Source: Bacteroidota bacterium (GTDB lineage: Bacteria > Bacteroidota > Bacteroidia > B-17B0 > Aurantibacillaceae). Taken from it: a stretch of 64,000 bases of DNA. The notes under the pieces were generated by a model that was not told the DNA's origin, did no database searches, and was given only the letters and a program-made list of their open reading frames with translations. Every line of letters begins with the position of its first letter. Position 1 is the first letter of the stretch. Made by a program: the position numbers and the translations under genes. This document shows positions 12,359 through 15,347 of this stretch, in pieces. The stretch covers positions 1 through 64,000 of the forward strand of contig JANYEQ010000003.1 in the NCBI GenBank assembly GCA_025363015.1, given 5' to 3'.

Positions 12359-12391
12359 TTTGCTTTAATAAAAATTAATTCTTTAAATTTG
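12359..12391 (+). promoter_or_regulatory. Promoter of the methionine operon
   Basis: A -33-like TTTG (12359-12362) and an exact -7 TAAATTTG (12384-12391), separated by 21 bp, match the Bacteroidota sigma-ABfr promoter. The expected start of transcription is a few bases later, just before the 5' strand of riboswitch helix P1 at 12416. Confidence 0.65.
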
Positions 12392-12415
12392 TACACGATT
12401 AACTCACACAGTGTG

Positions 12416-12553
12416 TTTTAATTTATTAAGATGCGGCGAGAGAATAGGCTCACTAACCCGCAGGCAACCAACTAATAGTATCAATAAAACGATATTGGAA
12501 AACCGGTGCTAAATCCTACCCTTGATGAGAGTAAAGGGAACAATAAATTAAAA
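12416..12553 (+). promoter_or_regulatory. SAM-I (S-box) riboswitch
   Basis: All four helices can be drawn. P1: 12416-12427 with 12542-12553, 12 perfect pairs. P2: TGCGG 12432-12436 with CCGCA 12458-12462, enclosing a kink-turn/loop region where the usual GGG:CCC pairing is replaced by GAG:CUC. The conserved GGCAACC follows at 12463-12469. P3: AGTATC with GATATT. The invariant GGTGCTAAATCC is at 12505-12516. P4: CCCTT 12519-12523 with AAGGG 12534-12538. The family binds S-adenosylmethionine, which stabilises P1. The 3' strand of P1 ends two bases before the ATG of the leader peptide, so SAM would be expected to hide the A-rich initiation region rather than act through a terminator. Downstream genes (metX, hom) fit a methionine signal. 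Confidence 0.93.
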
Positions 12554-12555
12554 AA

Positions 12556-12675
12556 ATGAAAATGAAAAACGCACACATCCAAAATCAAAACAACAAACTA
12601 AGTACTCACGCGAGTATAGTTAAATTTTTTACTTCAGTTACACCTTGTATGTGTTGCTGTTGTTGTATGTGCTAA
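12556..12675 (+). CDS. Cys/Met-rich 39-residue leader peptide (putative attenuator uORF)
   Basis: ATG (12556) directly follows riboswitch helix P1; a second ATG is at 12562. The frame runs 39 codons and ends PCMCCCCCMC-stop: seven Cys and two Met codons in the last nine. The rest is unremarkable (Asn/Gln/Thr-rich). Its place between a SAM riboswitch and metX, with competing hairpins starting at its last codons, is what a ribosome-stalling leader for sulfur amino acids should look like. Alternatives: a metal-binding or thiol peptide that acts as such, or chance. I know no named family. No homology is claimed. Confidence 0.7.
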   Translation: MKMKNAHIQNQNNKLSTHASIVKFFTSVTPCMCCCCCMC

Positions 12676-12754
12676 GCATTTCTTAAACTTTACAGTTTAA
12701 ACTTTACTTAGCAAATGCTAAGTAAATAATGTATTTGATGATTCCTCATCAAAT
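12670..12754 (+). promoter_or_regulatory. Mutually exclusive hairpins after the leader peptide (putative attenuator)
   Basis: Four elements. (a) TGCTAAG 12670-12676, covering the leader's last codon and stop. (b) Hairpin 12683-12689/12694-12700 (TTAAACT/AGTTTAA). (c) An 11-bp perfect hairpin 12703-12713/12716-12726 (TTTACTTAGCA/TGCTAAGTAAA). (d) A 9-bp hairpin 12733-12741/12746-12754 (ATTTGATGA/TCATCAAAT). Segment (a) is identical to 12716-12722 and can pair with 12707-12713 instead, so a ribosome sitting on the Cys codons would change which structure forms. None of the hairpins is followed by a T-run, so a classical terminator is not seen; the output could be translational or Rho-dependent. 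Confidence 0.5.
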
Positions 12755-12817: not shown

Positions 12818-13042
12818 ATGAGAAATAATAATACTAAAACCTCCACAAAAAATTTACTTACCGACAATAATTTTATTGATATCATAAAATTTGAAGCCGA
12901 CTATGCTCAAAAAGTAAAAGGCGGGCATTTGCCTTACTACATTGGTGTTGAAAAAATAGCCCGTTTAGTTAGCCCTATAAATTATCTATCAAGTAATGAA
13001 AAACAAAACTTAGTAAAATCAAATTATATAAGTAAAAATTAA
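12818..13042 (+). CDS. Unknown 74-residue protein of the methionine operon
   Basis: ATG at 12818, stop 5 bp before metX, so probably translated together with it. The protein is basic and Asn/Lys-rich, with a central part (about residues 18-58: FIDIIKFEADYAQKVKGGHL and following) that looks like an ordered small fold. It has no Cys and no Met after the initiator. No family recognised. It could be a real small protein, a second regulatory ORF, or a remnant of a longer gene. Confidence 0.6.
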   Translation: MRNNNTKTSTKNLLTDNNFIDIIKFEADYAQKVKGGHLPYYIGVEKIARLVSPINYLSSNEKQNLVKSNYISKN

Positions 13043-13047
13043 AAATT

Positions 13048-14100
13048 ATGTCGTTACAAACATTTATATTTTCTCAACCTTTTAAATTAGAAAGCGGCGA
13101 ACAGCTTCCTGAAATAGAAATTGCCTATCACACATTTGGAAAATTAAATACAAAAAAAGATAATGTAATATGGGTTTGCCATGCATTAAGTGCTAATAGC
13201 AATGTATTTGATTGGTGGCAAGGTTTATTTGGCGAAAATTGTTTATTTAATCCGCAAGATTATTTTATTGTTTGTGCTAATAATTTAGGATCTAGCTATG
13301 GCACCACTGGAGCATTATCGCATAATAAGTATACAAACCAACAATGGTTTAGTCATTTTCCTCACATTACCATTCGCGATATGGTAAACGCACACGAACT
13401 ATTACGCCAACATTTAAATATTGATAAGATACATACAATTATTGGTGGCTCGCAAGGTGCACAGCAAGTAATGGAGTGGGCAATTTTTCACCCCTCATTA
13501 TTTAAACATAGTATTTTAATTGCAACTAATGCTAAACATTCTCCATGGGGCATTGCCTTTAACGAAAGCCAACGCTTAGCCATTAAAGCTGATAGAACCT
13601 ATTATTCTAACACTATTAATGGTGGCGAAAAAGGTTTAGCGGCTGCAAGAAGTATAGCCTTATTAAGTTATAGAAATTACGAAACCTACAATCAATCGCA
13701 ACACGAAAAAACTAACGAAAAAACAAATGATTATAATGCAGCAAGTTATCAGCGTTATCAAGGGCAAAAATTAATTAGTCGGTTTAATGCCTATTCGTAC
13801 GTTACACTTATAAACGCTATGGATTCTCATAATGTAGGCAGAGGAAAGCAATCAATTGAGAAAGCGCTTGAAACTATTACTGCAAAAACCCTAGTAATAG
13901 GTATTAGTACAGATATGTTGTTTCCGCCACACGAACAAATGTACCTATCTCATCATATAAAAAATAGCAGTCTAAAAATTATCGATTCGTTTTATGGCCA
14001 CGATGGTTTTTTGTTAGAAACAAAACAGCTTACCACCATTATTAGTGAATTTTTAATTTCAAATCAACAAAATACAAATAAATTAGTTTTAACCTTATAA
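13048..14100 (+). CDS. metX: Homoserine O-acetyltransferase
   Basis: 350 residues, alpha/beta-hydrolase fold. Transfers an acetyl group from acetyl-CoA to L-homoserine, committing it to methionine. The nucleophile is Ser135 in GGSQGAQQVMEW; Asp289 (STDMLFPPHEQ) and His318 (FYGHDGF) complete the triad. AMDSHNVGRG (257-266) and NNLGSSYGTTG are further family signatures. Since some MetX-family members use succinyl-CoA, the acyl donor is inferred. In the riboswitch-controlled operon, between the 74-aa protein (5 bp) and homoserine dehydrogenase (8 bp). Confidence 0.93.
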   Translation: MSLQTFIFSQPFKLESGEQLPEIEIAYHTFGKLNTKKDNVIWVCHALSANSNVFDWWQGLFGENCLFNPQDYFIVCANNLGSSYGTTGALSHNKYTNQQWFSHFPHITIRDMVNAHELLRQHLNIDKIHTIIGGSQGAQQVMEWAIFHPSLFKHSILIATNAKHSPWGIAFNESQRLAIKADRTYYSNTINGGEKGLAAARSIALLSYRNYETYNQSQHEKTNEKTNDYNAASYQRYQGQKLISRFNAYSYVTLINAMDSHNVGRGKQSIEKALETITAKTLVIGISTDMLFPPHEQMYLSHHIKNSSLKIIDSFYGHDGFLLETKQLTTIISEFLISNQQNTNKLVLTL

Positions 14101-14108
14101 AAAACAAA

Positions 14109-15347
14109 ATGGCGAAAAAATTAAAAATAGGATTGTTTGGCTTTGGCTGTGTTGGTCAAGGTTTGCACTACGTATTAAACAATAGTACAGGCTTTAAAGC
14201 CGATATTGTAAAAATTTGTGTAAAAGATAAAACTAAAAAACGCATAGTTTCTAAAAGTTTAATTACCTACGATAAAAACGAAATTTTAAACAACCCAGAA
14301 ATTGATGTGATTGTTGAGTTAATTGACGATGCCACCGAAGCCTTTAAAATTGTAAGTCAGGCTCTAAAAAAAGGCAAACATGTAGTAACTGCTAATAAAA
14401 AAATGTTGGCGCTGCATCTACAAGAATTATACGAATTACAACAAAAAAATAATGTGTCACTTTTATACGAAGCCTCGGCGTGTGGCAGTATTCCTATTAT
14501 TAGAAGTTTAGAAGAATATTTTGATAACGAAGAATTAGAAAAAGTAACAGGTATTTTTAACGGCACTACCAATTATATTTTAACCAAAACAATTAGCGAA
14601 AAGTTATCGTACCCCATTGCGTTAAAACAGGCACAAGAAAAAGGCTTTGCAGAAACCGATCCTACAAACGATGTACAAGGTTTTGATGCAAAGTTTAAAG
14701 CGGTTATCATTTCGTTACACGCCTTTGGCTTAATTATTAAGGCAGAAGAGGTATTAAACATTGGCATTACAACCTTACACGAAAACGATATTAATTATGC
14801 TTCTGAAAAAGGGTATAAAATAAAACTAACGCCCATTATTCAACGCCTATCCAACAATAAAATAAGCGTATTTGTAGTACCGCGTTTTATAGAAAACAAC
14901 AATCAATTATTTAACGTAGATAACGAATTTAATGGTGTAATTGTAGAAGGTAAATTTAGTGGCGAACAATTTCTGCAAGGCAGAGGCGCAGGCAGTTATC
15001 CAACGGGGGCAGCTGTATTATCTGATATTTCTGCACTTTCGCATGGCTATAAATACGAATTTAAAAAGCATATACAAAAACACGCAAATGGTTTTACAAA
15101 CAATGTAATTATAACTATTTATTTACGATATAATTCAATTGCCGATTTAGAAAAAATAAAATTTACCAAAGTTTTAGAAAAATATACAGGCAACCATTAT
15201 AACTACGTTGTGGGTAAAATAAATTTACAAACTTTATTAAGCGAACGAGAATATATTTTAAAAAACAAATTATTTATTTCGTTAGTAAATGATACGGTTA
15301 CTCTAAACGAAAGCAAATCAGTAACAAAACAAATCAACCATAAATAA
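14109..15347 (+). CDS. hom: Homoserine dehydrogenase
   Basis: 412 residues. Reduces aspartate semialdehyde to homoserine with NAD(P)H. N-terminal Rossmann motif GLFGFGCVGQGL (about 8-19), VVTANKKMLA, the FNGTTNYIL substrate-binding loop and the AETDPTNDVQGFDAKFK signature are all visible. The last ~85 residues are where an ACT domain is found in longer homologues but are divergent. It is monofunctional, not fused to aspartate kinase. Last gene of the methionine operon, supplying MetX with substrate, and followed by a strong terminator. Confidence 0.93.
   Translation: MAKKLKIGLFGFGCVGQGLHYVLNNSTGFKADIVKICVKDKTKKRIVSKSLITYDKNEILNNPEIDVIVELIDDATEAFKIVSQALKKGKHVVTANKKMLALHLQELYELQQKNNVSLLYEASACGSIPIIRSLEEYFDNEELEKVTGIFNGTTNYILTKTISEKLSYPIALKQAQEKGFAETDPTNDVQGFDAKFKAVIISLHAFGLIIKAEEVLNIGITTLHENDINYASEKGYKIKLTPIIQRLSNNKISVFVVPRFIENNNQLFNVDNEFNGVIVEGKFSGEQFLQGRGAGSYPTGAAVLSDISALSHGYKYEFKKHIQKHANGFTNNVIITIYLRYNSIADLEKIKFTKVLEKYTGNHYNYVVGKINLQTLLSEREYILKNKLFISLVNDTVTLNESKSVTKQINHK

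Follow-up and report, generated by a model that had tools for sequence, protein, structure and literature searches.

In the polycysteine leaders of mycobacteria, a stalled ribosome reportedly frees the next ribosome-binding site. Leader ORFs with Cys runs precede cys operons in actinobacteria, mycobacteria included, with no clear intrinsic terminator (PMC1262725), and polycysteine leader ORFs are also the subject of Canestrari et al. 2020 (doi 10.1111/mmi.14498), cited in PMC13236596. In Rhodobacterales, the cysS uORF motif uORFC-8-2 has two tandem Cys codons and is predicted to act by ribosome-mediated attenuation (PMC8632094). Riboswitches can also act on upstream starts: B12 riboswitches ahead of metE and ppe2 in M. 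tuberculosis control translated uORFs that modulate the downstream gene (PMC11260477), and at S. meliloti metA a SAM-II riboswitch acts at AUG1, upstream of the real start AUG2 (PMC9373788).

Here, we describe a unit of Bacteroidia in which a SAM-I riboswitch is followed directly by a leader ORF with a Cys/Met-rich end, before metX or metY. It has the features of the actinobacterial polycysteine leaders (PMC1262725), namely, a short ORF and a Cys run beside the stop codon before sulfur amino acid genes; unlike them, it belongs to another phylum, precedes metX, metY, or hom, has Met codons interspersed, and starts without a Shine-Dalgarno sequence against SAM-I. The two are likely convergent; the sequences are too short to show common descent. 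uORFC-8-2, unlike the Bacteroidia unit, has an intrinsic terminator, lacks a riboswitch, and targets cysS (PMC8632094). With respect to SAM-I (S box) elements in general (RF00162), the aptamer studied here matches the model over its full length, but the predicted target of its expression platform is the leader ORF, instead of a terminator or the biosynthetic gene itself. A riboswitch is predicted to act on an upstream ORF, as in the M. tuberculosis B12 uORFs, for which the accessible part of PMC11260477 does not describe the sensing of a second amino acid that we propose here. The S. meliloti metA element is likewise a SAM riboswitch acting on a start codon that precedes the true one of a methionine gene, but it is SAM-II, has no Cys-rich leader peptide, and has AUG1 in frame with metA (PMC9373788). 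Our literature search, which covered mostly open-access papers, found no description of SAM-I stacked on a Cys leader; cysteine-responsive leader peptides in Bacteroidota were likewise not described in the literature searched.

We propose that the unit is a widespread two-input gate of Bacteroidia, in which SAM would license a ribosome-based sensor of Cys/Met-tRNA, both sensors being placed on metX and metY (the shared trunk) and SAM-I alone on metH. We put the probability of this reading at roughly 0.6.

RESULTS

Parts of the locus

The window, which is the whole 64,000-nucleotide stretch of DNA analyzed, carries the following parts.

12359..12391 (+): Bacteroidota-type promoter, TTTG (12359-12362) and TAAATTTG (12384-12391; consensus TAnnTTTG), from sequence reading
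12398..12422 (+): 5'UTR hairpin P0 (arms X:Y), ATTAA..CACAC-A-GTGTG..TTAAT, from sequence reading
12416-12427 (TTTTAATTTATT) with 12542-12553 (AATAAATTAAAA): extended P1, 12 bp, all A/U, from sequence reading
12420..12549 (+): SAM-I riboswitch aptamer, RF00162, cmscan 56.5 bits (cut-off, 44.4)
12556..12675 (+): leader ORF, 39 codons, MKMKNAHIQNQNNKLSTHASIVKFFTSVTPCMCCCCCMC, with a Cys/Met C terminus kept at the stop in relatives
12568..12575 (+): early leader codons AACGCACA, predicted to form a duplex with GTGTG (12411-12415) outside P1, enclosing the leader start codon
12670..12676 (+): strand A, TGCTAAG, the last Cys codon, the stop, and G, from RNAalifold and the matched-versus-mismatched test
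12707..12713 (+): strand B, CTTAGCA, pairing partner of either A or C, from the sequence
12716..12722 (+): strand C, TGCTAAG; paired and extended, B and C give a hairpin of 11 bp (12703-12713 / 12716-12726), from sequence and fold
12733..12754 (+): further hairpin, ATTTGATGA-TTCC-TCATCAAAT, from sequence and fold; a hairpin at the same place recurs in many relatives' folds
12818..13042 (+): conserved small protein of 74 aa, between leader and metX
13048..14100 (+): metX, homoserine O-acetyltransferase family, TIGR01392, 1e-102, 343.9 bits (cut-off, 500), below equivalog cut-offs
14109..15347 (+): hom, homoserine dehydrogenase, NF004976, 342 bits, above the cut-off of 205; PF00742

The preliminary description had read a complete SAM-I riboswitch, a 12-bp P1 ending two nucleotides 5' of the leader ATG, and a 39-codon ORF ending PCMCCCCCMC-stop. 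All of this was borne out: the Rfam match covers model positions 1 to 108, and the ATG lies at 12556, 6 nt past the aptamer match and at the stated distance from P1. metX and hom, said to come next, do lie downstream, but a conserved 74-codon ORF sits between leader and metX. Homologues of this ORF occur in 28 aligned loci, with 45% mean column identity, and a conserved protein of 74 to 80 aa (NLIG...QAxYGxAQRGG...RLVSDVNLL...N) is found between the leader and metX or metY at about 40 loci of the family. The 74-aa protein had no Pfam family match, and we do not assign it to a known family; its AlphaFold model was too weak (mean pLDDT, 68.6; pTM, 0.35) for further use.

An Rfam search of the genome gave a second SAM-I match, on another contig (C100; 41.1 bits, below the Rfam cut-off), classed as before metH and without a leader, and no further one. 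The Cys/Met run is unique in the window, even when 3 mismatches are allowed, and appeared in 0 of 100 dinucleotide shuffles.

Distribution and gene specificity

SAM-I was found in 77 of the 87 genomes of the window's family. Most of the short elements there (about 130 nt) are followed within about 15 nt by an ORF ending in, for example, MACCMCCCCCMC, and the Cys/Met run noted in the preliminary description is kept in relatives. We scored as a leader any ORF starting within 55 nt of the aptamer with at least two Cys in its last 14 residues, a lenient rule, and the loci counted share ancestry and do not form an independent sample. In the window's family, a leader followed SAM-I at 35 of 36 metX loci and 12 of 12 metY loci (together 47/48), versus 0 of 39 metH loci. 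In other families of the class, which include f18, f35, f36, and f43, the counts were 14/16 for metY and 4/6 for metX (together 18/22), 1/55 for metH, and 0/13 for metB/Z. Three SAM-I loci ahead of metB/Z-like genes (L003, L007, and L008) lack a leader. A three-Cys rule gave 46/48 (family) and 15/22 (other families) for metX/metY and 0/39 and 0/55 for metH. Shuffled downstream DNA would yield 2.7 leaders at the 36 metX loci and about 1 at the 12 metY loci (roughly 1 in 14). That the leader is tied to metX/metY and missing at metH is more in line with two sensors than with chance.

Two metX loci of the family are exceptions. A stretch of N breaks up one of them (L017). The other (L046, genome G074) has an intact SAM-I before metX and a decayed Cys run (...ACMWCGMRQFGFSF), and its genome is among the few with a stronger CysE-like hit; a loss of the second sensor is possible there. 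Elsewhere (L063, genome G032), a third SAM-I copy, probably a decayed duplicate, retains only a remnant of the start of the leader, and the gene after it is not related to metX, metY, or metH.

We also scanned the DNA of 84,980 species representatives (about 257 billion bases) for the strict pattern MCCCCxMC-stop and obtained 26 places, 25 of them in Bacteroidota records. Seven of the 26 lie beyond those matched to family genomes. In three of the seven (L103, L106, and L118), SAM-I lies above cut-off just upstream; the record of L106 bears the title Crocinitomicaceae. In three more, each from a different genome, the leader occurs with no SAM-I, before metY (L098 and L107) or hom (L117), which marks the leader as a separate module. 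The seventh, in Ruminococcus (L093), looks like an antisense chance match.

Some SAM-I elements have other neighbors. In family f44, one (L215) is followed by an ORF ending GCCCCC-stop before an amino acid permease-like gene. In family f36, SAM-I precedes peroxiredoxin-like genes (L135 and L223) and cysteine-desulfurase-like genes (L164, L224, and L226), an unusual set of targets for SAM-I.

The start of the leader

A TAnnTTTG element lies within 75 nt upstream of SAM-I at 47 of 50 leader loci (4.6 expected), and the full TTTG-N18-23-TAnnTTTG promoter at 42 of 50 (0.5 expected); in most leader loci, the promoter is 31 to 33 nt upstream. The 3' arm of P0 also serves as the outer 5' strand of P1, which puts P0 in competition with extended P1. 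P0 cells were paired at 93% over 46 loci, compared to 83% when 3' arms were dealt among loci, and 0 of 2,000 shuffles reached 93%. Changes in X track changes in Y: ATTAAAAC occurs with GTTTTAAT, and ATTAATTAC with GTAATTAAT or GTAGTTAAT. The alternative 3' partner of Y is either the flank before the ATG or leader codons 2 to 7, as in GTGTGTTTT with AAACACAC, GTGTAGTT with AACTACA, and GTGCG with CGCAC.

In a matched-versus-mismatched test, we compared own-locus pairing with pairing swapped between loci (300 permutations) and repeated the comparison in 19 diverse representatives. Swapped pairing did as well as own-locus pairing in 0/300 permutations for X:Y (1/300 in the representatives), 0/300 for Y with codons 2 to 7 (4/300), and 1/300 for Y with the flank (0/300). 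A helix enclosing the start of the leader ORF, formed by the P1 extension and by Y with leader codons, can be drawn from sequence alone. The swap test supports strand exchange here, and we read it as the way in which P1 would enclose the leader start when bound to SAM, with SAM as the putative cause. Weighing against this, P1 and P0 overlap only partly, and P1 usually appears in MFE folds computed with no ligand.

The alternative that fares best, although we consider it unlikely, is that the two elements are independent: SAM-I would act on the mRNA by a route of its own, such as folding or decay, and the leader would sense Cys charging as in mycobacteria, with no gating of its translation by SAM. 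Leaders without SAM-I in three genomes and SAM-I without a leader before metH agree with this view, as each element works alone; yet at nearly all loci 2 to 15 nt separate the 3' end of the aptamer from the leader AUG, and the P1 flank pairs with early codons of the leader.

The end of the leader

Whether the leader evolves as coding or noncoding DNA was a question raised by the preliminary description, and the 54 leaders compared have a coding pattern. TGT and TGC alternate at nearly every Cys site while Cys is kept. The stop follows directly after Cys in 51/54, Cys stands at positions -4 to -6 in 48 to 49 of the 54, and Met codons stand at -2 in 43/54 and at -8 in 33/54. Length ranges from 25 to 72 aa, the N terminus is variable, and Cys is rare outside the last 14 residues. 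From these comparisons, the constraint appears as selection on codon identity at the end of the leader, not on a folded protein. The runs of f36 vary (VVCCMCCCCC, SQCCCC, NMCCCMC, MYRCC, and MCMCMQ), and some variants have spaced Cys pairs, e.g., CCGTCCPLC and CCCDSTCCPLC. We presume that the leader is translated and that it reads the charging of Cys- or Met-tRNA.

That methionine charging rather than cysteine is the input is improbable. The conserved Met codons at -2 and -8 would suit it, as would downstream genes that make methionine; however, Cys is far commoner and better conserved, several f36 leaders end in Cys alone (e.g., SQCCCC), and the Met codons may be kept for RNA pairing (AUGUGC with GCAUGU). 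We give still less weight to a functional peptide, which would be either a small protein rich in Cys or a nascent chain that stalls the ribosome when it binds a metal or responds to sulfide or redox state: high Cys density and the spaced Cys pairs would be in keeping with it, but a run abutting the stop would still be inside the ribosome when decoded, length and N terminus are not conserved, and the last codons are used in alternative pairings. An untranslated ORF arising by chance or annotation artefact is very hard to reconcile with its conservation, with the way it recurs across several families, varies synonymously, and keeps to particular genes, and with the near confinement of the strict pattern to Bacteroidota records in so large a scan.

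Output to metX

The leader's 3' end can enter mutually exclusive hairpins, A:B and B:C. RNAalifold, run on 21 relatives, chose A:B unprompted as the consensus, with B about 35 nt downstream of A. Swapped pairing of A with downstream sequence equaled own-locus pairing in 0/300 permutations, and again in 0/300 in the 19 representatives. Within the main group, whose columns show hardly any variation, covariation of A:B did not exceed that in shuffles, and single-locus duplex energies and P values of A:B and B:C were mostly unremarkable.

Terminator-like hairpins occurred at 18 of 54 loci versus 11.5 expected from shuffles, with none clear in the window; given this weak enrichment, we do not claim intrinsic termination as the output. 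At two distant loci (L106 and L098), a hairpin of the leader 3' end is directly followed by a U run. At the two metY loci with a leader and no SAM-I (L098 and L107), the leader's own Cys codons have a possible pairing partner immediately downstream, which in L098 precedes a U run.

Metabolic context

In the window's genome, PALP-family matches comprise TrpB, an ACC-deaminase-like protein, and a protein resembling cystathionine beta-synthase, which at 497.8 bits narrowly misses the TIGR01137 cut-off of 510.25. Its Cys/Met-metabolism PLP enzymes are gamma-synthase/lyase-like (NF005871, above cut-off) and O-succinylhomoserine sulfhydrylase-like (below cut-off), and a separate CysK-size enzyme was not found in this genome; CysK-size proteins occur in a few genomes of the family. 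No genome of the family passed the CysE cut-off, and five had stronger subthreshold hits (110 to 166 bits). In the window's family, cysteine most likely comes from homocysteine, which would make metX the shared trunk of Cys and Met and metH a Met-only branch. The f36 genomes have a CysE-like protein, below cut-off at 150 to 174 bits, and the logic of reverse transsulfuration therefore does not extend to f36; as a general reason for Cys sensing, we set it aside.

DISCUSSION

Two sensors in series quite probably govern how homoserine enters the synthesis of sulfur amino acids, as first suggested in the preliminary description; conservation of the run, its coding pattern, the conserved placement of the start at P1, the strand-exchange pairings, and specificity for metX/metY all argue for it. 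The ORF before metX, the leaders that lack SAM-I, and the spread through Bacteroidia go beyond that description. In the mechanism that we propose, without SAM the outer 5' strand of P1 would pair with the 5'UTR (P0), leaving the A-rich region of the leader start accessible. In the presence of SAM, P1, extended into the opening codons of the leader, would close over the AUG and keep the leader from being translated. Under a shortage of Cys-tRNA or Met-tRNA, a translating ribosome would slow at the terminal Cys/Met run and, paused, cover strand A, so that B:C could form. A leader that is untranslated, or finished and vacated, would allow A:B to form, and A:B would be the repressed form. We take it as such because high SAM and ample Cys/Met would then both repress, and because of the U run after the hairpin in L106 and L098; the sign of A:B and the output step to metX are our own commitment here.

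Altogether, the sequence comparisons show conservation, coding constraint, gene specificity, the promoter, and, across the loci as a population, the competing pairings. The unit is real and brings two known kinds of sensor together in a new combination; comparison supports the link from SAM to the leader well and the output step less so. Its recurrence in several families, including f36 with single-contig, near-complete genomes, suggests that a tractable host may exist. If our reading is true, cysteine-responsive leader peptides would extend to Bacteroidota, and there would be a testable reason for the different wiring of metX/metY and metH. A single mRNA leader would then hold a natural logic circuit: whether the ribosome-based amino acid sensor comes into play at all would be up to a metabolite-sensing RNA, and the cell could gauge two sulfur nutrients before it commits any sulfur.
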